A stretch of 20,436 nucleotides of DNA from a virus: IMG/VR virus record IMGVR_UViG_3300007963_000073, positions 1 to 20,436 of that record. One strand, written 5' to 3'. The position numbers and the translations under genes are program-made. A model generated the notes under the pieces. It was given only the letters and a program-made list of their open reading frames with translations. It did not search any database and was not told the DNA's origin. This document shows, in pieces, positions 2,719 through 16,635 of the stretch (the stretch's first letter is position 1; each line of letters begins with the position of its first letter).

Positions 2719-4019
2719 GCGCATTTGGTGCAGCACTATCAACAATGGGTGCGGGCCTGTTCCAGATGGGTCCGCAGATGGCGCAGGATCAAATATCTGC
2801 GATTGAGGCACAGGCTGAGGAAGCCAAACAGGCAAGAGCCGAGATGTTTAAGGTGACTGCCATGGCTATGGATCAGTACACCAACCAGATTCAAATCTCC
2901 CAGAACCAAGAAAAGATCGACTTACTCCGCAATGAGGACACAAGAAAGCAGGCCGACTTTGAATCCTCTCAGGCCGCTGCGAAGGCTGGCACTTGGGAGT
3001 GGAAGAAAATTGAGAATCGGACTGCTACTCAAAATCAACTTACGGGAGAAATTGAGTCTGTTGAAACTCAGCCAACATACGGCTGGCAAAACAGCGTCTC
3101 TATGGAGTTTGTTCCGTATAACCCGGGCCAGACAAGTCCTGATGGGCAAGCCGCCCCAGTTATAGGAAGTGGTGAAACTCTAACTTTTGAAAGCGAAGCC
3201 GCAGTTAAAAAAGCAATCAAGGATCAGTTAACCGCCCGGTTCGCAGATCAGCCGGATAAGTTGAAGGAATACACGAGCGCAAGCAACATAAATCGTCTGT
3301 TTCAGCAGGGCATCCAAGCAAACCCTCCGCTGTTCGTTATTGAAAAACCGACAAAAAGCAGTGCAACAAAAACAGAAGCGGGAAAAGTTACAGAAAGCAA
3401 GACTGTCACAACCGCGAATAAGCGGTTTATCGAGGAAGCCGTTACCCCTGAACTGGCAGCAGCCGGGGCAGCGGTAAACGACGAAAGAGTTGCGCAAGCA
3501 AACGTAACTGGTGGGTTAGGCGCATTTGCTGAACAGGCGAAGGCAACAAATGCGGCTCTGGTTGCAGAACAAAACGCAGCAGCCCCAACGGTGACAGGGG
3601 CAGACGCAGGGCTAATTACGGCCCCACTAACAGGGCAATCCCCCGCATACGGACAGGCTGAGGTAGCAGGCCAAGTCATGGGTCAGCCAACCGCTTCTGT
3701 TACTGCTCCAATAATGAGAGGTAGTCAGCCAACCGATTCCGCTACTACTTCGGAGCCAGTGGTATCCAGTGTCATTGGGGCAGGTGATGTACCCACCCAA
3801 AAAGAGGTTTACGAATACGACGCTGAAGAATCTGCTGCCTTTATTGATGAACTGATTGCAGGCATGCAGGCTGCCAATATTCCTAAAGAAACGATATTGG
3901 AGGAACTTAAAAAAATAATGACTGGTCTTTCAAAGGATGCAGCCGGTGCTAACAGTGTGTTTGCAGACGTCTTGGCCAGAAAGTACACCGCGTTATTAGT
4001 TCCACCATCGGGCGCTTAG
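2715..4019 (+). CDS. Probable internal virion protein, helical (gp15-like position)
   Basis: The 434-residue protein opens with a small glycine/alanine-rich stretch (MSAFGAALSTMGAGLFQMG). A strongly predicted coiled coil covers residues 20-95 (Gln/Glu/Ala-rich, QISAIEAQAEEAKQARAEMF). A mixed middle follows, then a Ser/Thr/Ala/Pro-rich linker around residues 290-355 containing a short near-repeat (GQPTAS / GSQPTDS, from a repeated 12-bp GTCAGCCAACCG). The C-terminal helical part (residues 360-430) closes it. Its place directly before the giant ORF matches T7 gp15, the middle member of the ejected core, but I see no direct sequence proof. ATG 2715 overlaps the upstream stop by 4 bases. The next gene starts 3 bases after its stop. 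Confidence 0.7.
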   Translation: MSAFGAALSTMGAGLFQMGPQMAQDQISAIEAQAEEAKQARAEMFKVTAMAMDQYTNQIQISQNQEKIDLLRNEDTRKQADFESSQAAAKAGTWEWKKIENRTATQNQLTGEIESVETQPTYGWQNSVSMEFVPYNPGQTSPDGQAAPVIGSGETLTFESEAAVKKAIKDQLTARFADQPDKLKEYTSASNINRLFQQGIQANPPLFVIEKPTKSSATKTEAGKVTESKTVTTANKRFIEEAVTPELAAAGAAVNDERVAQANVTGGLGAFAEQAKATNAALVAEQNAAAPTVTGADAGLITAPLTGQSPAYGQAEVAGQVMGQPTASVTAPIMRGSQPTDSATTSEPVVSSVIGAGDVPTQKEVYEYDAEESAAFIDELIAGMQAANIPKETILEELKKIMTGLSKDAAGANSVFADVLARKYTALLVPPSGA

Positions 4020-4022
4020 TTA

Positions 4023-7000
4023 ATGGCATCAGAAAATAATCTTAGTGTATTTGATCTTTTCGGTTCCTCGCCCCAGCCTCAACAGTCATCTGAAACGCTT
4101 TCCGTATTCGATTTATTTGGGCAGCCAGCAGCAGAGCAAGAACCAGATTATGAATCCTCTGGATATCTTTCTGACTTACTGCATGCTGGGGGAAGTGGCC
4201 TAGAGCGAACAACGGCTTCATTGCAAGCCGTATCCATGCTGGCTGGTGGCCCAGACATGGCTGACAACATTGCTGAGTATTACCGAAACTCAACTCAGCC
4301 AGAGTACATGGATGCGTTCAATCAAAGGTTGGCTGCCGCTTCTACACGTTGGGATAATGCTGAGGGCTGGTGGGAAAGTTTGGGGGCACTTGGCGGCGGT
4401 GCCTATCAGATTTTGCGCGACCCCAAGGCGCTTTCCTACTCAATTGTAGAAAACGCTGCGAACTTCCTCCCATCTTTAGGCACGGGTATAGCGGGCGCTA
4501 AGGTGGGAACAATGATTGCCCCCGGCGCTGGCTCAGGTGTTGGTTTCCTGACTGGAATGAGTGCGGGAACCATCGCGACTGAACTTGGTCACAAGACCTT
4601 GGAACTGGCGAGAGAGTTTGGCGCTGACGTAACGGACGCTGATAGCCTTCGTTCTGTGTTTGCGGACAGCGATTTCAGAGCGGAAGCCGCAAAACAAGGT
4701 CTAACCAAAGGTGCAGCAATCGCGCTCGTAGATGCGCTCTCGTTTAAGTTGGCAGGGCGTGTTGTTACAGCCCCGGGTCGAGAACTTAATAAGAAGGTAG
4801 AAAAAGAACTGATGGATGCTGGCGCGGATATCGCTGATCCAGCATCTGTTGCTAAAGCCTATGCCAGACCAGATGTTGCGGAAAAGATTGCTGCGCACAC
4901 TGAGAAATACATTGCCAAATCAAATAGGCTCACCCCGAAAATTGGCAGAGGTGCAGCAGCGCTTGGTTTGGAATCTACTGGGGAAGGCTTCGGAGAACTA
5001 AGCGGAGAATTCCTCGCTTCAGGTGAAGTCAAGCCTATTGATGCTTTGCACGAAGCCTTTGCGGGAATGGGGCAAAGTGCTGCACAGATAGGAATATCTA
5101 AGTCGCTGTCTGCCGGGAAAAAGCAAACCCAGAAGTTATTGCAGGAAGCAAGAAAGGCTCAGGTAGATAAAGTCGCGCAGGGTAAAGACTCGCAAATCGA
5201 TCCCGGTGCGTTAAATGAAGCGCTAAGGCAAAGGCTTGACGACGTTGATACCGTCCTTGAGCGGCAAGAGGGCCTAGCCCCGATTGAAGTCGCAGAGATG
5301 GAACGAGAGGTTGGAAGGGTGGACGCTACGACGCCTCTTGAGTCGGTAGTCAGCGCTTTACCTGATCTTCCCAACTATGAGACTTACAAGGGACGCTTAC
5401 AAGGAGCGGTGAGAGAACTTGAGGGTGACTCCCTTGTTATGTATGCCCCGCTCACTAAAGAAGAGCAAGCGGCAATGCAGGCGGGAGGTGGGCTTAAACG
5501 CGCCGTTGTTGCCTCCATAGCAGAAGAGGGCGTAACTCCCGGGGCCAATCAGTCAGTGGCGCGCGTTTCAGTGCCTACTGAAAACGTCTTGTTGAAAGCG
5601 AATTGGTCGAGAGGCCAGTTAATGATATCGCCTGACAATGTTGCGCTTGCTCCGTTAGTCTCGCCGCAGCAGGCAGTTCAGGAAACAGAAGCAGCGCAAG
5701 ACCTAGGCCCAGCCCTTGAACAAGAGCAGGCTCGTCTCCAGCGTGTACAGGCTCAGGCCGCACTGGAAGAGCAGGCTGAACTAGGTACTGCGGAGGGCAG
5801 AGCAGAGCGCGCTGAGAAGGCCCCCACGGTCTCCGCAAAACGTGCAGCCACGATACGTCGTGAAAGCAGGGATTTCCTCAAACGGCTTCCGGCTGACAAA
5901 CTTATTACAGGCAAGGGCAGGGTAAAAGGCGATCCTCGGAAACTGACTACCAACGAACTTCGTAAGGTTGTTGATAAGTACAACATTCCGGTAGAGCGCA
6001 ACCTTAGTCAGTCAGAACTTCAGGACGTCGTTCTTTCTTATAAGAGAGCGCTGGCAAAGCCGACTGGCCCTTCTATCAATAAAGTCCTCAGACCCAAGGG
6101 GTACCGACTCAGCCGCGTCTTCAATAAAGAGACCGATGCGCATGAGATTCATCTGGTCCCAGTCAAGAACAAGCCTAGATTAGCCAATCCTGTTCTGACG
6201 GCTTCATCCGTTGACCAGATCAGCATTCCAAACTACATCGACCTGATCGATGACCGACTTGCTGAAACAGGGGTAACAAGGTCCGATACGGCTCGGGTTG
6301 CCACTCAGTTACAGGACGCCAAAGCGGAGCGTAAAGAAGAGGGAAGACGGGTGGCTCAGGCAGCCCGTGAGCAGGCCGCTGCTGAGAAGAAAGGTAAGCC
6401 TACTATAAAGGAGGCAGTAAAACAGGCCGAGGAGCAGTTTGTTACTCGTAATAAGTCAGGGGTCCGTATAGATGAAGCAGGACTTCAGAACTTTGCCGAT
6501 AGCCTTCAGGAGAAGGAGTTCTGGACAAAGAGGCTGACCAAGGAGTTTGATGCCTATGTAGAGCGCCTACGTCGAGAACAGGCTTTGTCTCAGGCTCCTG
6601 TAATGCCGATAGGCCCGCTCAAAGGGCGTAGAACTGTTTTCTTTGAAGCCGTACCTGATACATCCCTTCCAGAGTACGAGCCTATCCGTCAGTTGGGTTA
6701 CGTCCAGCGGGAGAACTTTACCAACAGAGCAGCCAAGTTGCTTCAAACCCGTAACGGCACCGATGCGTTACTGGGGAAGATAGCCAACATATACGTCAAG
6801 CAGAAGCCCGGAGTCGGCGGTTACGAGAAGACTGTTAACCCCAACATCTTGATGACCCTGTCACCTAAGAGTGATACGAATCAAATCGCTGACGTTTACT
6901 CATGGGCAGTCCAGTACATCTTCAGACAGGCTGCTGTTCCATGGGCTATTCCTGACAACTCCTTGGACGTAGACTCGGACGCGGTCACTGTAGGAGCCCA

Positions 7001-10000
7001 CTTTAAGTTCAAAGGAAAAATAGGTGGAGCATCAGAAGCGCTTTTCTACAAAGAACTTCGTGAGAGCCTTGGCGTTGATTCTGGCTACACAAAAATTTCT
7101 CCTACGGATATAATTGTTCTCAACTTCGACCTAGACAAATCAAAGTTCGCAAGACGCATAGGCAGGTTCAATGGCAAAGCAAGCAAAAAGTTCGGGTTCC
7201 AAACAGAGTGGTTCACCTCGCGAGGGGAGTACCATGAAGCGAACTGGAATGAAGACCCATATGGAGAAAGTATCAGGGATAAAATTCGCGAAGCCGGATT
7301 CTCCGATCTACTCCCATTCCTTGATAGTCGGTTCGCGGCATTTAACAAACTCGCCGCAGAGTACGGCGTCAAAGTCCCAGAAGAAAAAGCAACTCAAGAA
7401 GATGGCCGACCAAGTAGGCCGCGAAGCGATAGAGGCGCTAGAGAACCCCCGCTAGACGCCGAGACCAGCCCCACCAAAGCCCCCGATCAGGGGGCTTTTT
7501 CTTTAGAGTCTCAGATACGAAAAATCGAGGCTCAAATAGCAGAACTTGACCCCGAGTCAGAGTCCGGTTTAATACAAGAACTAATCTTTCAAAGAAACTT
7601 CTTACTTGAGGAAGAAGCCCCCGATCAGGGGGCTTTTTCTTTAGCGCCGGAAGTAAAGAGCGATGAAGTTGTTCTTGTACATTACTCCCAGCAAAAGAAC
7701 CTCACCAAAACTGACCCCTCCTACCACGGCACTGGATATCAAGGCGCTGAGAAGAAGCGTAAGGAATCCTTTCCCGACACCTATGTAGACCGAACCTATT
7801 TCGGTTTTCTTGATTACCGCAGAGAAGGGGGCCTCGGCCCCAACCAGTATCAGGCAAAGATTCCGTTTGCGCGGCTGTATGACTTCGCTCGTGACCCTGA
7901 TGGACTAAACACTGCTACTACCTTTGATCGAGTCAACCGTTATGAACAGGCCATCAAGAACGCAGGCTATGCGGGTTACTACGTCAAAACGGGTAGGGGA
8001 ACAGTTGCTGCTGTCTTTGAGGAGATTGAACTAGAAGCGCCCGGAGCCTTCGCATTACTTCACCACGGCACACCCGGCACATGGGCATCAGGAGTTCCAG
8101 ACCTGAACTTCTTGGGAAGCGGAGAAGGAGCGCAAGCATTTGGCTGGGGCATCTACTTCGCACAGCGTAAAGGTGTTGCAGAAGATTATTGGACTACGTT
8201 ATCCCCCAAACAGTACTTTGTTGACGGGAAACCATACGATGTTACAAATCAAAAAGATCGTATATCCGCTTCTTATGCCAGAAACGAAGAGCGAGGGATA
8301 CTCCAACTCAAGCAAGAATTTCTTGATGACTCTTTTAATCAAGGCGATGAACTTCAGGCAGAGATTGACCCCATCAGACGATTCCTTCTCGATCCAGATA
8401 ACTTAGAAGAATTTAATAGGTTAGTTGCCGAGAGGGAAAAAGTCGCTGATAAAAGAGACAGGACATTAGAGCAGTTTGACGAAGCCAAAAATACAGAGGA
8501 AGCACTCAAGGCTCTTGGCAGAGACGCAGACGATTTACACAATGCCATCCTTGACGTAGTCGCTCCAAATTTAAGTACTTTGGGTTATCTGGCCGAACTT
8601 GAGTTTTCGTCTCAGGAGGCCGCTAAACAAACAGCCAAAACGGATCAAGATTATTTAAATCGCGCTAGAAAAGATCGCAGTCTCATCGGCAAAATCACCA
8701 CAGAGCAGGGAGGCAACGTTTATACCGTCGAGTTAGACGACAGTGTTATCGACAACTTGCTCGACTGGGATGCGCCGTTCAGCAAGCAGCCACCAAAGGT
8801 AAAGGCTGCGTTGGTTGAGTTGACAAGAAAAGCAGTTGGTCTTTCAGAAGCAAAAGAATACTTCGCCATTGAGGACAAAGATTGGGGCGCACTGACTCCA
8901 CTTCAAAAACAAGGTTACGTTGACGAAATTTCTGAAAATCTAAGTCTAAGTGTCAAAAATAACGATACAGGCGCAACGCTGTACAGAGCCCTTGAGCAAA
9001 TTTTACAGAGCAAAAAGAACGCATCCCTTGCGCTTAATTCACTAGACGTTCCGGGGCTTAAATATTACGACGGCGTTTCAAGAAGAGCAAAGAAAGGGAC
9101 TCACAACATTGTTCTTTGGGATCAGGACACCCTAAATACACTAGAGGTCCCCATACCAGACAAAACGTTCTGGTCACTTGAACAAAAGCCCGCCTTGAGC
9201 GGGCTTTCTACTTCTAAGGCCAGAGAGGTTCTACAAAAGCAGTTTGGCCCCGTCGTAGACAAACTTGAAAGCGAAGGTATTCTCGAAATCGTCAGGTCTG
9301 TAGAACAGGTTCCACAGGAACTGATTACGGGTGATGCAGCGCTAAGGGTTAGAGCGGTTTACGACAAGCGAACCTCTAAGACTTATCTGATTACCAGCAG
9401 GCTTAACGAAGGTAATGTTGGGAAGATACTTCTGCATGAGGTTGGCGTCCATTATGGTCTCCGACGCATGTTGGGCGACAGGTCTTACGCTGAACTTATT
9501 CTGGACATTAACAACCAGAAGGACGGAGCGCTCAAACCCTACTTTGATTACGTCAGGGAGGCTTACGGAAGCAGGCTGCAAAACGAATCTTCTGACGCTT
9601 TTGTTGAAGAGGTTATCGCCCGCATTGCTGAAGACACCAGTGAGCAAACTCTTTCGATAAGAGGACAGATTTGGGTTGCTGTTCGTGCATTCTTAAACAG
9701 GTTATTCGGCACCAATTTTAAGATCACTGATCGAGAAATCGGCTACATCATTCGTGGTGGTTCAGGGTTTGTGTCTGACCTGTTACGTCAAAAGGGCAGC
9801 CTCAAAACAGCAGCGGATCAAGGCTACACGCCTCCGTACATGCTGCTTAACGACTCTCCCGCGTTTGGGCAGAGAACAATCGGCTTTCCTGAATACACGC
9901 AGCCCATCAGGGACTTCACCGCGCGTCATATCCAGTACAGGGTAGCAAACCCGGACGGAACCAAACTCCCAAGCAAGGAGGAAGCGCAACTCCGCAAAAA

Positions 10001-13000
10001 CATGAACCGCATGATGAAGCATGCGGATACGCTGGGTAAGAGCATTAAAGAGGTAGATGTACACCTCCCCATACCAGCAGACACAACTAACCTGACCTCT
10101 CGGTACGCATTGTTCAAGAACAATCGCACCGGGACAGAGTTGGTCATTCGGGTCAGCAACCACTCAAAGGACATGGCCACGGCTATTGGTTCGTTCCCGT
10201 TTGTCTCCTTCAACAATGCGCATAAACAAGATATTGACTTTGCCGATATGGACAAAGCGGTCAGGATGCTTGCTGAGGGTAAAGCGGAAGGAACGAACGC
10301 CTTGGAGTTTTACATCCTTCACAGGCTTGGTGATGTCTTAGCCCCGCTGACGGATAAGCAACTAGACAGACTCGGTGACTACGCTAATTTCAAACGCGCA
10401 ATCCAGAGAGTTAAGCCCGATCTTTTCAAGCGTCTTGTCGCGATAGAGACAAGACAAGACCTCAACTCAGCAGCCGTCATCAATGACGACAATGCCATGT
10501 TCGCACTGGGACCTCCGGTGGAACGAAATGAGGTGCAGGAAGGTCTTGTTCGCGAACTGACTCATACCAAGAATCGCACCCTCTTTGAGCATCTAGAAGA
10601 GTCCCGTCTAAGCCGTTGGGATTGGCTGGTGCAAGGGATGATTGATACCTACCGCCCAATTGCAAAGTTGGAGAAGTTCGGCGCGAATACGGCTCAACGT
10701 GCGTGGCAGATGATGCACCTGTCCGAAAACACTCATGGGCTACTGAGCGCTGTTCTCAATTACGGAACACCAAAAGAGGTTACTAGGGACGGCAAATTTG
10801 ATTGGTACGACATAGACCGTGATCAGCAAGGACTGGTTGAGGTTCTGCGTGATCTGGGCGGTGGTAATGAAGTCGATAACTTCCTCGCATGGGTTGCTAT
10901 GAACCGTGCAGACACCCTGATGAAAGAGGGTAGGGAGAAGCACTTCACAGAACAGCAAATCCGTGAGGGCATGAAACTGAATCGTGGCCGTATGGAAGAT
11001 GGCCGCAATCGGGCTACCGCCTACATGAGGGCTATGCGTGGCTTATCCACTATTCAGAAGAGCATGCTGGATATGGCTGAGAAAGCGGGAGTCATTGATC
11101 CCGAACTTCGTAAGACCTTGCAGACAGACTTCTACGTTCCCTTCTACCGTGAGTTTGATCACAAGGACAAAGAGAACATCCGGGGACCGTCTCCAACCTA
11201 CGACTTCGTGAACATGAAGAACACGATCAAGAAGTTGCAAGGTTCGGAACTAGGTGTCCATGACATCCTGCACAACATGGTGATGAACTGGACCGCTTTA
11301 ATGAGTGCCAGCATGAAGAACCGTGCCGGAAGAGAAGCCATGGAAGCAGCAGTCGATGCGGGTGTTGCAACAAAGATTGAAGACGATCAGGACGCTGCGC
11401 AGATGGCGTTCGCAAAACGGCATGCCAGAAAGAGCAAATATGACAATTACGTCTATGTAATGGAGGAAGGGAAAAAGGTCTGGTACAACGTACATGACCC
11501 GCTGGTCTTGAATGCACTGGCATCTCTAACTTCTGGAACGCTGAACACCAGTTGGATCAGGCCGTTCCAGACGACCAAGCGTGTATTTACATTAGGCACC
11601 ACGTTATCCCCAGCGTTCAGGATAAGAAACCTTATTCGTGACGCAGTCAACTCAATTGCTGTAGGCAAACTCAATTACAACATCTTCGGAAACGTTGCCA
11701 GTGGGTACAGGGCAATGGCAAAAGGCAGTGTTGTTGAGTCTTCTATGCTCTCTGGTGGTGGCGGATTCTCGTTTGGCTTTCTGAATGATGACCCATCAGC
11801 AATAAGAAGGCTGGTTAAAGCGGGTGTAAAAGAGTCCCGCATTCTCGACACCACAAAAAAGGCCACAGGATTCCTCAGAGAGGGCTTCCAGTGGTATCAG
11901 GATGTTGGCAACAAGATTGAGAATGCTAACCGTGCTGCTTTGTATATGCAGCGCCGAGGAGAGGTGGGACATCTGCAAGCATCGTTTGAAGCGAGAGACT
12001 TGCTTAACTTCTCCAGCCATGGAAGGTTTGCCTTTGCGCAACTTCTAACGGCGTGGACCCCTTTTCTCAACGCACGCCTCATGGGTCTCGACAAGTTAGG
12101 CCGAGCCATGACCGGGGAAGAGCGTGGCCGCATGGTCACAGTGACGGGAGCGCTAGTCCTCGCCAGTATCGGGTACATGCTCTCCATGGAGGGTGATCCA
12201 GATTACGAAGAGTTAGAAGACTGGGTCAAAGATACCTACTGGCCCATCAAACTGCCCGGTGGGGACACTTTCTTTTTCCTGCCCAAGCCATTTGAAATGG
12301 GCGCGGTAACCAGTATCGCAGAGGCTATTACCAAGAACTTCATAGATAGCACTGGGGTACATGCGCCATACACGGCTGCCCGTATCAGAAAGATATTGAT
12401 GGCTCAGTTGGCATTTGATCCTAGACCCCAGTTGCTCCGACCAATCATTGAGGTCGGGACCAACAAGGATGCTTTCCTTGATCGACGCATTGAGTCACTT
12501 AGTTGGGACATGCAGAAGGTTCCGAAGACTCAACGTAAACGGGCATACACGTCAGAGATTGCTGTCTCAGCAAGCGAACTGATGGGGGTCTTAATGCCAG
12601 ACTGGATGGAAGATACAGATGTTCATCTTTCCCCTGTTCAGATCGACCACCTTATTAAAGGTTATCTGGGCTGGGCTGGTGCGAACGTTGTTGCTTCTGC
12701 GGACTACTTGCTCCGTGAGCAGGTCAAACCAGCCATTACGGGACGTGAGCCTGCTCCACGGGCTTCAAAGCGGATTGACGAGATGGATTGGGTTGGACCA
12801 ATTCCATTCCCCCTAAAGTCCTTTGTCTCATCTAGCCCTCGTAGAAACACGATTTACCTGACTCGCCTGTATGAGCAAATGGAAGAGGTGAAGAAGTACT
12901 ACGCCGAATACGTCCATTACCGTGAGCATGGCATGACCGATGAAATGATGGAGGTCGTGGCGCAGAGAGGGGACCTTCTGAAGTGGCGTAAGACTTACAA

Positions 13001-13196
13001 CACAGTCCAGACCCAACTTGGAAGGATTTCTAAACGTGTTCGTCAGATCGAAAGAGATCAGGAGATGACACCCGATGAGAAGCGCAAAGAAATTGATCGC
13101 CTCACAGAGATGCGAGGCGCGCTTGCGAAGCGGGTAGTAGAAGCACGAGCGAAATACGATTCAGCAGATAACCCATCACTGTACAAAACTCTATGA
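4023..13196 (+). CDS. Giant polyvalent internal virion protein (gp16 position) with ART-like and metallopeptidase-like domains
   Basis: One uninterrupted 3057-residue ORF. Visible parts in order: duplicated LSVFDLFG motif (residues 7-14 and 26-33); Gly/Ala-rich possibly membrane-active stretch (about 150-190); charged coiled coil (550-610); SAP/HeH-like helix pair (about 640-672, LTTNELRKVVDKYNIPV); an unknown domain (860-1125); linker KAPDQGAFSL (1152-1161); short helix; linker APDQGAFSL (1199-1207); an ART-like or unknown domain (1212-1335, HYS and YQAKIPFARLYD motifs); GAFAL (1341-1345); ADP-ribosyltransferase-like PolyVal domain (1347-1715, HHGTPGTW, GAQAFGWGIYFA, KYYDGVSR); FWSL (1716-1719); metallopeptidase-like domain (HEVGVH at 1805-1810, downstream EEV); AMFAL (2158-2162); a long helical C-terminal region resembling large-polyvalent-protein domains, with a hydrophobic segment near 2700 and a terminal coiled coil. 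I infer that it is ejected with DNA. No lytic transglycosylase motif was seen. The start has a weak Shine-Dalgarno. Confidence 0.85.
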   Translation: MASENNLSVFDLFGSSPQPQQSSETLSVFDLFGQPAAEQEPDYESSGYLSDLLHAGGSGLERTTASLQAVSMLAGGPDMADNIAEYYRNSTQPEYMDAFNQRLAAASTRWDNAEGWWESLGALGGGAYQILRDPKALSYSIVENAANFLPSLGTGIAGAKVGTMIAPGAGSGVGFLTGMSAGTIATELGHKTLELAREFGADVTDADSLRSVFADSDFRAEAAKQGLTKGAAIALVDALSFKLAGRVVTAPGRELNKKVEKELMDAGADIADPASVAKAYARPDVAEKIAAHTEKYIAKSNRLTPKIGRGAAALGLESTGEGFGELSGEFLASGEVKPIDALHEAFAGMGQSAAQIGISKSLSAGKKQTQKLLQEARKAQVDKVAQGKDSQIDPGALNEALRQRLDDVDTVLERQEGLAPIEVAEMEREVGRVDATTPLESVVSALPDLPNYETYKGRLQGAVRELEGDSLVMYAPLTKEEQAAMQAGGGLKRAVVASIAEEGVTPGANQSVARVSVPTENVLLKANWSRGQLMISPDNVALAPLVSPQQAVQETEAAQDLGPALEQEQARLQRVQAQAALEEQAELGTAEGRAERAEKAPTVSAKRAATIRRESRDFLKRLPADKLITGKGRVKGDPRKLTTNELRKVVDKYNIPVERNLSQSELQDVVLSYKRALAKPTGPSINKVLRPKGYRLSRVFNKETDAHEIHLVPVKNKPRLANPVLTASSVDQISIPNYIDLIDDRLAETGVTRSDTARVATQLQDAKAERKEEGRRVAQAAREQAAAEKKGKPTIKEAVKQAEEQFVTRNKSGVRIDEAGLQNFADSLQEKEFWTKRLTKEFDAYVERLRREQALSQAPVMPIGPLKGRRTVFFEAVPDTSLPEYEPIRQLGYVQRENFTNRAAKLLQTRNGTDALLGKIANIYVKQKPGVGGYEKTVNPNILMTLSPKSDTNQIADVYSWAVQYIFRQAAVPWAIPDNSLDVDSDAVTVGAHFKFKGKIGGASEALFYKELRESLGVDSGYTKISPTDIIVLNFDLDKSKFARRIGRFNGKASKKFGFQTEWFTSRGEYHEANWNEDPYGESIRDKIREAGFSDLLPFLDSRFAAFNKLAAEYGVKVPEEKATQEDGRPSRPRSDRGAREPPLDAETSPTKAPDQGAFSLESQIRKIEAQIAELDPESESGLIQELIFQRNFLLEEEAPDQGAFSLAPEVKSDEVVLVHYSQQKNLTKTDPSYHGTGYQGAEKKRKESFPDTYVDRTYFGFLDYRREGGLGPNQYQAKIPFARLYDFARDPDGLNTATTFDRVNRYEQAIKNAGYAGYYVKTGRGTVAAVFEEIELEAPGAFALLHHGTPGTWASGVPDLNFLGSGEGAQAFGWGIYFAQRKGVAEDYWTTLSPKQYFVDGKPYDVTNQKDRISASYARNEERGILQLKQEFLDDSFNQGDELQAEIDPIRRFLLDPDNLEEFNRLVAEREKVADKRDRTLEQFDEAKNTEEALKALGRDADDLHNAILDVVAPNLSTLGYLAELEFSSQEAAKQTAKTDQDYLNRARKDRSLIGKITTEQGGNVYTVELDDSVIDNLLDWDAPFSKQPPKVKAALVELTRKAVGLSEAKEYFAIEDKDWGALTPLQKQGYVDEISENLSLSVKNNDTGATLYRALEQILQSKKNASLALNSLDVPGLKYYDGVSRRAKKGTHNIVLWDQDTLNTLEVPIPDKTFWSLEQKPALSGLSTSKAREVLQKQFGPVVDKLESEGILEIVRSVEQVPQELITGDAALRVRAVYDKRTSKTYLITSRLNEGNVGKILLHEVGVHYGLRRMLGDRSYAELILDINNQKDGALKPYFDYVREAYGSRLQNESSDAFVEEVIARIAEDTSEQTLSIRGQIWVAVRAFLNRLFGTNFKITDREIGYIIRGGSGFVSDLLRQKGSLKTAADQGYTPPYMLLNDSPAFGQRTIGFPEYTQPIRDFTARHIQYRVANPDGTKLPSKEEAQLRKNMNRMMKHADTLGKSIKEVDVHLPIPADTTNLTSRYALFKNNRTGTELVIRVSNHSKDMATAIGSFPFVSFNNAHKQDIDFADMDKAVRMLAEGKAEGTNALEFYILHRLGDVLAPLTDKQLDRLGDYANFKRAIQRVKPDLFKRLVAIETRQDLNSAAVINDDNAMFALGPPVERNEVQEGLVRELTHTKNRTLFEHLEESRLSRWDWLVQGMIDTYRPIAKLEKFGANTAQRAWQMMHLSENTHGLLSAVLNYGTPKEVTRDGKFDWYDIDRDQQGLVEVLRDLGGGNEVDNFLAWVAMNRADTLMKEGREKHFTEQQIREGMKLNRGRMEDGRNRATAYMRAMRGLSTIQKSMLDMAEKAGVIDPELRKTLQTDFYVPFYREFDHKDKENIRGPSPTYDFVNMKNTIKKLQGSELGVHDILHNMVMNWTALMSASMKNRAGREAMEAAVDAGVATKIEDDQDAAQMAFAKRHARKSKYDNYVYVMEEGKKVWYNVHDPLVLNALASLTSGTLNTSWIRPFQTTKRVFTLGTTLSPAFRIRNLIRDAVNSIAVGKLNYNIFGNVASGYRAMAKGSVVESSMLSGGGGFSFGFLNDDPSAIRRLVKAGVKESRILDTTKKATGFLREGFQWYQDVGNKIENANRAALYMQRRGEVGHLQASFEARDLLNFSSHGRFAFAQLLTAWTPFLNARLMGLDKLGRAMTGEERGRMVTVTGALVLASIGYMLSMEGDPDYEELEDWVKDTYWPIKLPGGDTFFFLPKPFEMGAVTSIAEAITKNFIDSTGVHAPYTAARIRKILMAQLAFDPRPQLLRPIIEVGTNKDAFLDRRIESLSWDMQKVPKTQRKRAYTSEIAVSASELMGVLMPDWMEDTDVHLSPVQIDHLIKGYLGWAGANVVASADYLLREQVKPAITGREPAPRASKRIDEMDWVGPIPFPLKSFVSSSPRRNTIYLTRLYEQMEEVKKYYAEYVHYREHGMTDEMMEVVAQRGDLLKWRKTYNTVQTQLGRISKRVRQIERDQEMTPDEKRKEIDRLTEMRGALAKRVVEARAKYDSADNPSLYKTL
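7476..7504 (+). terminator. Terminator-like hairpin inside the giant ORF, copy 1
   Basis: AAAGCCCCC, loop GATCA, GGGGGCTTT form a 9-bp perfect stem followed by a T-rich run (TTTTTCTTT). This is the textbook shape of an intrinsic terminator on the plus strand, yet it is read in frame as KAPDQGAFSL (residues 1152-1161) in the giant protein. It sits exactly between the domain that ends near residue 1125 and a short helical module. Whether it stops RNA polymerase here is unknown; late phage transcripts must pass it to express the rest of the gene. Confidence 0.6.
7477..7644 (+). repeat. 30-bp direct repeat pair carrying the hairpin and FSL linker
   Basis: Positions 7477-7506 and 7615-7644 are identical over 30 bases, from AAGCCCCC to CTTTAG. 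The flanks differ on both sides, and the 46-codon spacing keeps the frame. The repeat encodes the linker APDQGAFSL in both places, so a linker-plus-hairpin cassette seems to have been duplicated around a short 37-residue helical module. Confidence 0.85.
7615..7642 (+). terminator. Terminator-like hairpin inside the giant ORF, copy 2
   Basis: AAGCCCCC, loop GATCA, GGGGGCTT form an 8-bp stem followed by TTTTTCTTT. The 30 bases from 7615 to 7644 are identical to 7477-7506, 138 bases (46 codons) upstream, so the same frame and the same peptide APDQGAFSL are encoded (residues 1199-1207). It lies just before the ART-like or unknown domain that starts near residue 1212. Confidence 0.6.
9185..9213 (+). 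terminator. Terminator-like hairpin inside the giant ORF, third and unrelated copy
   Basis: AAAGCCCGC, loop CTTGA, GCGGGCTTT form a 9-bp perfect stem, followed by the partly T-rich CTACTTCT. The sequence differs from the two upstream hairpins but has the same design. It is read in frame as QKPALSGLS (residues 1721-1729), directly after the ADP-ribosyltransferase-like domain and before the metallopeptidase-like domain. The weaker T-tract makes terminator activity less certain than for the other two. Confidence 0.45.
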
Positions 13197-13552: not shown

Positions 13553-13848
13553 ACTGTACACATTCGATTGTTCGAGTTTCATGGATTGATGCAGACAACG
13601 TATCTGGGTGGCAAGAATTCAAAGAAGAGCCCCCTTGGATTATTCACACTATCGGGTACCTAGTTTCTTCAGGCAAAAAGAAAACAGATTTTGTTGTCTT
13701 GGCGGACTCACACTTGCCGGACACAGACCAGTGGGGAGGACTCAACAGAATTCCGATGGGGATGGTCTTGAGCATCGACATCCTTCTTGAGTCAGTTCCC
13801 TGCGGTCGAAAATATGAAAATACTCGTAATTCCCGACACACAGATTAA
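13549..13848 (+). CDS. Small conserved-type phage protein of unknown function
   Basis: I start this gene at GTG 13549, which overlaps the previous TGA by 4 bases, giving 99 residues. The frame is open further upstream, but that part only shadows the membrane-protein gene. The sequence (IVRVSWIDADNVSGW, then IIHTIGYLVSSGKKKTDFVVLADSH, then RIPMGMVLSIDIL) follows a pattern I associate with short beta-rich hypothetical proteins near terminase and lysis genes of many tailed phages: a VxWxDA start, a TxGYL motif and a final IPxxxVxxI stretch. No catalytic residues are evident. Its 3' end overlaps the start of the phosphoesterase gene by 35 bases, an unusually long overlap. Confidence 0.65.
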   Translation: MNCTHSIVRVSWIDADNVSGWQEFKEEPPWIIHTIGYLVSSGKKKTDFVVLADSHLPDTDQWGGLNRIPMGMVLSIDILLESVPCGRKYENTRNSRHTD

Positions 13849-14593
13849 ACCCGGCGTTCCTATCGTCCAGATGAAATGGGCGGCAAGGGCCATCAGAGAC
13901 TACCTAGGTGAGGGTGACTACGTCGTCCACCTCGGGGACCATTGGGACTTCCCCTCCCTAAGTTCCTACTCCAGCAGGAGAGAGATCGAAGGCCAGCGGG
14001 TCATTGAAGATATCGAGGCTGGGAACAAGGCAATGGACTTGTTCTGGAAAACCTTAAAGCCCATGAAAAGCCGCCCCGAGTTTCATCTGCACGGGGGTAA
14101 TCACGAACACAGGCTAGTCAGGTATGTGAACGATCATCCCGTTCTCGATGGAGTGCTGTCTGAGGATGCACTCAACAGGGATGGCTGGAAATTTCATCCG
14201 TTTAAAACAGTGAATGCCATTGGCGGAGTTCACTTTACTCATTACTTTTATGCTCCCTACACAGGTCGAGCATACGGCGGCACAGCGGAGAACATTCTTC
14301 GCAACGTAGGTCTGTCTTATTGCCAAGGTCATAGGCAAGGGAAACTCGTAGCCGCCAGAGCGCTTCCAACAGGTCAGGTGCAAAGAGCGCTGATTTGCGG
14401 AAGTTGCTACCTCCACAAGGAGGGGTACCTCGGGCCGCAGGCCAAGGAATCATGGCACGGAGTTGTAGTTTTGAATGGCGTAGAAGATGGAGACTACGAC
14501 ATGATGGAACTAAGCCTCAAATACCTCTGCCGGAAATACGAAAAAATTGAATTACGGGATTACCTCGCAAAGGAGGGAATCGACCATGACTGA
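13814..14593 (+). CDS. Calcineurin-like metallophosphoesterase
   Basis: I start the 259-residue protein at ATG 13814 (MKILVIPDTQ) rather than at 13787, because the metallophosphoesterase fold begins exactly there. The metal-binding motifs are in order: D8-T-Q10, G41-D42-H-W-D45, G95-N96-H97-E98, H140 in GVHFTH and G172-H173-R-Q. This is the standard two-metal phosphoesterase set, except that the first motif has DxQ and the last GHxQ in place of DxH and GHxH. Such proteins hydrolyse phosphomonoesters or phosphodiesters; the phage substrate is unknown, and DNA or nucleotide processing is a guess. The start overlaps the preceding gene by 35 bases. The end overlaps the next gene by 8 bases, with AAAGGAGG inside its 3' end serving as that gene's ribosome site. 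Confidence 0.88.
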   Translation: MKILVIPDTQIKPGVPIVQMKWAARAIRDYLGEGDYVVHLGDHWDFPSLSSYSSRREIEGQRVIEDIEAGNKAMDLFWKTLKPMKSRPEFHLHGGNHEHRLVRYVNDHPVLDGVLSEDALNRDGWKFHPFKTVNAIGGVHFTHYFYAPYTGRAYGGTAENILRNVGLSYCQGHRQGKLVAARALPTGQVQRALICGSCYLHKEGYLGPQAKESWHGVVVLNGVEDGDYDMMELSLKYLCRKYEKIELRDYLAKEGIDHD

Positions 14594-15435: not shown

Positions 15436-16635
15436 TCAAGCACTTACGACACGGGGTGTAGCGAATTTTCCTGTTAAGCCCGCTTGACCCCTTGCAACGT
15501 ACAACGGTTCGCGTTTTTGGTACCACGCAACTAACTTCTCAACACAGTCCAGAAGGTGCTGTGTTTCCGCTGCGCTGTAGCCAGTAGTGATGTCCTTGTT
15601 CTTGTGGCCCATCAGGTCTTTCCGGTCTTCCAGACCTACCCCCTGAGTCCGCAGGCGAGTGGAGAAGGAGTGTCTGAGGTCATGGACTCTTAGACTGCTC
15701 CTGCCACGCGATGTACGGCTCTCTGAGCGGCATTCTGACAAACCAGCGGTATCCACTGCTCTGATCCAAGAAGACGTGTACAGGGTGCTGTAGGGCTTCC
15801 TGTAACGTCCAGTGGCGTAAGTGAACACATATTCCTCATGCTCACCCAACTTGCGCTCAACAATCTCACGCGCAACCGAGTTCAGAACAACCCTGTGTGG
15901 TCGATCCTTCACCTTTAATCCGAAGTAGTTCTCAGGAATATCAAAGCAGAGAATGTCTTCGTCAGGGTAGTGGATCAGAAAGTCCCACTTCAAATTGCAC
16001 ACCGTCGCATTCCGCAACCCTGTGTGGAGTGTAAAGAGAACAGCATCCTTGAGGTCAGCGTTCAGGTTATTCAGAAGCGCCTTCTCGTGACCCTGCGTCA
16101 GGGGGAAGCCCTTTACCGGGTTGGTAGGTAGCAACTGAATGTACGGCTTACGCGCCAACATGGGTGCTTTGTTCTCGTCCTTCCACTTACTGTGAGCAGA
16201 ATTCAGAATCGCGATAATCACTTTCAGGTGGTGGTTGATGGTCCCCGGGGCGTTGCCCTTGGCCTGACAATCCGCGACCAACTGCTTCACCTTCTCATGG
16301 TCACCATCGACTAGCCTCAGAGGAACATCCTTGAGGTAGTCGAGCAAGTGATCCACCCGCCGACAATCTTCCCACCACGACTTCCGCTCTCTTCGCTCAT
16401 CCAAATACCGCTTGGCTGCATCATCAAACATCCAGTGACGGCTCTTGCCGTTGATCAGATCATAAGCAGCGTTCTCTTCCAACTTTCTGAGAACCGCTTG
16501 CGCAATTTTCTTGTTCGTTGTTGACAAGGTGCAAGAAATCACAGTTTTATGCTCTGACCCAATAGCCGCCTCTGGTGGCACACTCACTGTTTTGTTCGCA
16601 TGCCAGTACTTACCTCGCTTAAATAGACCATCCAT
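15436..16635 (-). CDS. int: Tyrosine-family site-specific integrase
   Basis: This 399-residue protein has the full catalytic set of a phage tyrosine recombinase: R208 (HTGLRNAT), H318-x-x-R321 (VHDLRHSF), H344 (LMGHKNKD) and the nucleophile Y353 (TTGYSA). A Lys candidate lies near 241-243. The N-terminal part (about 60-170) should hold the arm-binding and core-binding SAM-like domains. It would integrate the phage at a host tRNA-Asn gene, as the adjacent att core shows, and its 3' end points at that site. It is the last gene of the minus-strand operon, starting 2 bases after the stop of the excisionase-like gene. The long serine/arginine-rich stretch before the HxxR motif is typical of loop variation in the family. 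Confidence 0.95.
   Translation of the reverse strand: MDGLFKRGKYWHANKTVSVPPEAAIGSEHKTVISCTLSTTNKKIAQAVLRKLEENAAYDLINGKSRHWMFDDAAKRYLDERRERKSWWEDCRRVDHLLDYLKDVPLRLVDGDHEKVKQLVADCQAKGNAPGTINHHLKVIIAILNSAHSKWKDENKAPMLARKPYIQLLPTNPVKGFPLTQGHEKALLNNLNADLKDAVLFTLHTGLRNATVCNLKWDFLIHYPDEDILCFDIPENYFGLKVKDRPHRVVLNSVAREIVERKLGEHEEYVFTYATGRYRKPYSTLYTSSWIRAVDTAGLSECRSESRTSRGRSSLRVHDLRHSFSTRLRTQGVGLEDRKDLMGHKNKDITTGYSAAETQHLLDCVEKLVAWYQKREPLYVARGQAGLTGKFATPRVVSA

Follow-up and report, generated by a model that had tools for sequence, protein, structure and literature searches.

Why would a phage gene carry, within its coding sequence, what look like transcription terminators? The question is raised by a 20,436-nt stretch of viral DNA (IMG/VR record IMGVR_UViG_3300007963_000073, positions 1 to 20,436; hereafter the window), in which three short hairpins with T-rich tails lie inside one giant open reading frame (ORF). 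A sequence-only reading of the window had taken these hairpins for either fossils of intergenic terminators or working attenuators, an interpretation that, as a whole, we find partly supported. The explanation that we favour, with somewhat better than even confidence, is that intrinsic terminators were captured into the coding frame and now serve as portable linkers, or joints, between exchangeable modules of polyvalent proteins. We show by sequence comparison that such elements have the sequence and sense orientation of terminators, are translated, mostly in one frame, and lie at module borders, with homology between giant genes starting or ending at the hairpin edges.

Terminator-like hairpins in giant phage genes

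The core stems of all three hairpins comprise 8–9 uninterrupted pairs, six of them G–C in each, with loops of 5 nt, and the RNAfold energies of hairpins 1, 2 and 3 are –16.6, –18.5 and –14.5 kcal/mol. The 3′ tail of hairpins 1 and 2 is TTTTTCTTT; that of hairpin 3, TTTCTACTTCT, is weaker. With a G+C-rich stem–loop followed by a T-tract, all three are predicted intrinsic (Rho-independent) terminators, and all are translated in frame and read through within one ORF. The earlier description of terminator-like hairpins translated as linkers is thus borne out, as is the claim that two of them form an identical 30-bp repeat: hairpins 1 and 2 contain a perfect direct repeat (7477–7506 and 7615–7644). 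The stem of hairpin 3 differs. Its exact 23 nt are present in 8 other IMG/VR contigs, in every case with a stop codon 19–35 nt before it and T after it, so that elsewhere this sequence is predicted to work as an ordinary intergenic intrinsic terminator. The core of hairpin 1 has one further occurrence, in locus L263, where ORF analysis did not settle which gene it ends.

The features of the giant ORF are as follows.

4023–13196, + strand: giant polyvalent-protein ORF, 3057 codons (amino acids) open; houses all three hairpins and an LPD38 domain; has homologous giant phage proteins
6564–7475, + strand: module 5′ of hairpin 1; 36–40% identity (tblastn) to L097, L102 and L099
7476–7506, + strand: hairpin 1 (stem 7476–7498) with T-tract; peptide KAPDQGAFSLE
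7507–7614, + strand: 36-amino-acid helix-like segment that separates the two copies of the repeat; it and one copy make up a 138-bp, 46-codon unit (repeat spacing 138)
7612–7644, + strand: hairpin 2 (stem 7612/7615–7638) with T-tract; peptide EEAPDQGAFSLA
7647–8039, + strand: VHYS module; tblastn matches to H24–H26 and to L007, L010 and L164, parts of other giant phage proteins
8040–9182, + strand: ART-PolyVal-like module; aligns with other ART modules
9185–9215, + strand: hairpin 3, or site A (stem 9185–9207), with T-rich tail; peptide QKPALSGLSTSK
9345–9701, + strand: metallopeptidase-like domain with HExxxH motif; aligns with an Achromobacter phage protein
12195–12740, + strand: LPD38 domain (PF18857, E 4.6e-31, above cut-off)

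From its size, its many domains and the presence of an LPD domain, the product of this ORF is a predicted phage polyvalent protein. Its C-terminal part, which includes LPD38, matches giant proteins of many phages. As sole query against genome contigs the whole protein recovered no relative, and the 36-amino-acid segment has none among the fetched loci. The ART label derives from a PF18760 match below the curated cut-off, and the metallopeptidase label only from the HExxxH motif and a phrog_873 match. All three hairpins had been placed at module boundaries, and that is where they lie: hairpins 1 and 2 bracket the 36-amino-acid segment, and hairpin 3 separates the ART-PolyVal-like module from the HExxxH domain. 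An unusual feature of this region is that residues 1001–1815 (window 7023–9467), a run of ∼815 residues, contain no methionine codon.

Homologues were gathered via one C-terminal domain, which yielded ∼160 further loci (L numbers) and a set of 168 giant ORFs including that of the window (1.25 Mb). We defined strong hairpins as sense terminators at –13 kcal/mol or better; the energy cut-offs and tail rules are our own. These ORFs contain 48 strong sense terminators, compared to a mean of 1.95 (standard deviation 1.26, maximum 5) over 40 synonymous codon shuffles, which rules out a chance origin. Perfect stems with a sense T-tract number 31 (0.35 expected), while those lacking a T-tract are depleted (53 versus 92 expected) and the antisense-only class has 2 (1.2 expected). 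A simple terminator scan returned 25 sites against 21.5 expected. Hence, the earlier claim of recurrence beyond chance holds for strong hairpins, to which the excess is confined, and fails for terminators overall. The other genes of the same loci (1.04 Mb) hold 9 strong sense terminators, one of which has the same motif and lies in L114, in the apparent N-terminal fragment of a giant gene that has been split.

Among 31 distinct sites, the T-tract falls in one shared frame at 25. A second frame class contains hairpins 1 and 2 of the window and hairpin 1 of L102, whereas hairpin 3 of the window belongs to the other class; hence, the claim that hairpin 3 repeats the same design with a different sequence stands as to sequence, and the three are not read in one way. 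The recurrent peptide is [TA]Pxx(x)G[VL]S[VTA]S, with GAFSL as a smaller class. Searching IMG/VR for the pattern CCCGGC-N3-8-GCCGGGGTTTCTGTTTCT gave 9 matches, every one in frame inside an ORF: 7 in giant-type or large ORFs and 2 in terminase-like genes whose tails pass through the hairpin. In one of the terminase-like genes (L275, 2395–4350; hairpin 4266–4296), and likewise in L278, the C-terminal tail continues in frame through the hairpin to a stop 16 codons on, and the pattern is therefore not limited to polyvalent proteins. FS dipeptides are enriched in the giant proteins (1099 versus 776), and FS elsewhere is encoded as TTT TCT less often than expected (35 versus 71). The under-use of TTT TCT rules out that all xFS linkers are decayed T-tracts.

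Hairpins were also seen at other positions in these loci. Terminator-like hairpins lie directly 5′ of the likely giant-gene start in L093 (5580–5608), L095 (5565–5593), L149 (5659) and L232 (6871). L224, L227 and L229 carry an extra in-frame hairpin with an unusually long T-run (10186–10211 in each) in the conserved C-terminal part; it occurs in few Aeromonas prophages, is missing from ∼45–50 homologues that have both flanks, and marks no module border.

Module borders and stem conservation

We compared 100 amino acids on either side of each hairpin with all other giant proteins. Homologues matching both flanks made up 17% at hairpins, compared to 49% at random positions. A separate scan took sharp ends of nucleotide homology between giant genes, and not the hairpins, as its starting points: of 300 such breakpoints, 23 were no more than 25 nt from a hairpin, where 2.9 were expected. 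The sequence-only reading had proposed aligning related phages to see whether hairpins fall on the edges of domain insertions or deletions; they do, and they fall on the edges of swaps as well.

Individual comparisons, from Pectobacterium, Achromobacter, Aeromonas and metagenomic phages, illustrate each kind of edge. Two Pectobacterium prophage loci (L205 and L214) share 47 identical nt starting just 5′ of the hairpin and 89% identity downstream, and are unrelated upstream. In L208 and L209, a similar downstream part is found without the hairpin, and the upstream parts resemble the two types; all four combinations therefore seem to exist. At another site, site B of Achromobacter, two unrelated upstream modules join one downstream part at the hairpin. 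In Aeromonas, a module of ∼70 amino acids begins at the hairpin end in L230, L243 and L253 and is absent from L224 and L227. Between L281 and L156, identity is 98% through the end of the hairpin; L156 then continues with an additional in-frame module of ∼145 codons, past which the two are homologous again. In L276 and L280, 37 identical nt of hairpin-linker are flanked on both sides by unrelated sequence (background identity). Finally, the upstream module of L102 is homologous to that of the window and the bases past the T-tract are the same, but L102 has a single hairpin at this border; relative to L102, therefore, the window has the 138-bp unit between two copies.

Stems are conserved at both site A and site B. 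The hairpin at site A is found in all 6 nearest relatives that cover the site, the window counted, and 15–16 of 16 stem positions are identical, compared to 19–36% of fourfold sites just downstream (near-identical L003 excluded). Because the stem is unchanged while neighbouring synonymous sites are saturated, site A, just 5′ of the metallopeptidase-like domain, is by this measure no neutral fossil. It is not universal, being without a hairpin in several Achromobacter relatives. At site B, nine pairs are kept in 12 of 12 aligned sequences, with one compensated change (L178), a weak test of covariation given that 39 of 500 shuffles reached it. Hairpin 2 of the window and hairpin 1 of L102 differ by two compensated pairs.

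If the hairpins are captured terminators that act as joints, their identical or near-identical copies (∼35–47 nt) could serve as the homologous stretches at which phage or host enzymes recombine. Because copies would share a common frame, a crossover could swap, insert or delete a module without breaking the protein. Stems might stay intact through renewal of copies by exchange or through a retained role in transcription.

Several observations weigh against this explanation. Only 33 of the 168 giant ORFs have such a hairpin, and 80 loci picked by their ART module gave no strong hairpin outside the family of the window protein; thus, these elements are not a general trait of ART-bearing giant phage proteins. 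No hairpin lies near some 92% of the sharp breakpoints. Given this, together with the excess at breakpoints, hairpins are favoured module joints, not required ones. One caveat here is that breakpoints and sites are shared by related phages and so are not independent, which makes the P values optimistic. A hairpin may also mark the place of an exchange that it did not cause.

Competing explanations

A broader version of the captured-terminator explanation can be offered only tentatively. Translated-terminator joints might form a dedicated class of frame-matched connectors that both enable in-frame swaps and gate how far transcription of the giant messenger RNA extends, so that one element of 30–47 nt would tune evolution and expression together.

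The transcriptional half of this idea can also be taken by itself: the hairpins may be working intragenic terminators or attenuators, which reduce transcription of distal modules or silence stray transcription in the lysogen and are overridden in lytic growth by close-following ribosomes or phage antitermination. We consider this improbable as the whole account, although a late transcript may be attenuated in this way. Enrichment restricted to sense-strand stems with T-tracts speaks for it, the stems at sites A and B are preserved, and in E. coli a published in-frame terminator reporter had ∼18-fold lower downstream expression in the wild type (PMC5021804), a polarity strong enough that the window hairpins may carry a genuine cost or serve a purpose. 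However, T-tracts inside the giant ORFs are weaker than those of other sense-strand terminators (5.70 versus 6.33 T of 8), and an RNA ended at a hairpin has no stop codon, so that shorter products would be non-stop. Nor is restart a likely source of shorter proteins, given that residues 1000–1815 lack a methionine codon. Reinitiation after each hairpin was rejected: the next 70 codons hold neither ATG nor GTG in frame, and the single TTG has no Shine–Dalgarno sequence. Attenuation alone also does not predict that swaps and indels should have their exact edges at hairpins.

Less likely still is that the hairpins are neutral fossils, left when stand-alone genes were fused in frame together with their own terminators, which merely persist. 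Such an origin fits the sense orientation of the hairpins, their place at the ends of modules and the identity with terminators that lie between genes elsewhere; it also fits the terminase-like gene of L275 with its tail through the hairpin, and L018, in which an ORF ending with an ART module is followed by a terminator. Yet among the matches listed of 20 to 27 ART loci, L018 is the only such case; terminators, which the earlier reading suggested looking for after stand-alone modules, are otherwise rare after stand-alone or terminal ART modules. The lack of methionine codons leaves no trace of separate ATG starts, and one frame is preferred, at 25 of 31 sites. With the site A stem also conserved amid saturated fourfold sites, the plain fossil interpretation put forward earlier is not supported.

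Two further accounts are very unlikely. In one, it is the peptide that is conserved, as a GxSxS- or FSL-type protease site or flexible linker, and the palindrome is either incidental or a speed bump for ribosomes. Proteolytic processing does occur in polyvalent proteins, P1 DdrB among them (PMC5512222), the hairpin peptides are alike and FS is enriched; against this, the hairpins vanish upon synonymous shuffling and FS elsewhere avoids TTT TCT. Ribosome-pausing hairpins are disfavoured, since the speed-bump idea runs contrary to the depletion of stems without T-tracts. In the other, a self-inserting palindromic repeat akin to Rickettsia palindromic elements drops in frame into linkers; the hairpins are indeed palindromic, in frame and translated, and an identical 37 nt occurs in unrelated contexts, but there is no insertion signature, sequences vary between lineages, and no clean empty site appears among the flank comparisons listed (in L208 versus L254, the hairpin is absent and the linker is equally long).

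Related systems and neighbouring genes

Mosaic phage genomes have short boundary sequences at module junctions. The hairpins resemble them in being short stretches shared at the borders of exchanged segments; those boundary sequences lie between genes, however, whereas the joints described here are terminators internal to a single reading frame. With the polyvalent proteins of phages and conjugative elements (Iyer et al. 2017, PMC5512222) the window protein shares its giant multi-domain architecture with LPD38 and ART-PolyVal-like modules. Cassette recombination was raised there as a possibility, and in the parts of that text searched there is no mention of terminators or linkers, nor a description of hairpin joints. 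Rickettsia palindromic elements (reviewed in PMC10969869) are also short palindromic DNAs translated in frame within coding genes; these are repeats of ∼150 bp in unrelated genes, unlike the window-type hairpins, which are 30–47 nt long, terminator-shaped, sense-oriented, tied to module junctions and without clean empty sites. The in-frame intrinsic terminator of pyrL, a case of transcription–translation coupling, offers the parallel that a close ribosome can block hairpin formation (PMC5021804), but it lies in a leader peptide, whereas the window hairpins are interior to a giant phage gene. Full-text literature searches, whose coverage excluded most subscription papers, returned no earlier description of translated terminators at domain joints.

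Such elements would be a concrete DNA-level joint for the in-frame building and reshuffling of giant multi-domain phage proteins, and they indicate that coding sequence can harbour strong intrinsic terminators and keep them conserved. Annotation that treats such hairpins as gene ends would wrongly split giant proteins.

As for the rest of the window, an integrase gene (phrog_1) at 15436–16635 on the – strand suggests a temperate phage. The giant gene is flanked by an acetyltransferase-like gene (phrog_1249, 663–1109) and a metallophosphoesterase-like gene (phrog_221, 13787–14593), and the gene just 5′ of it contains a 26-nt repeat in two copies 42 nt apart (3682–3749).
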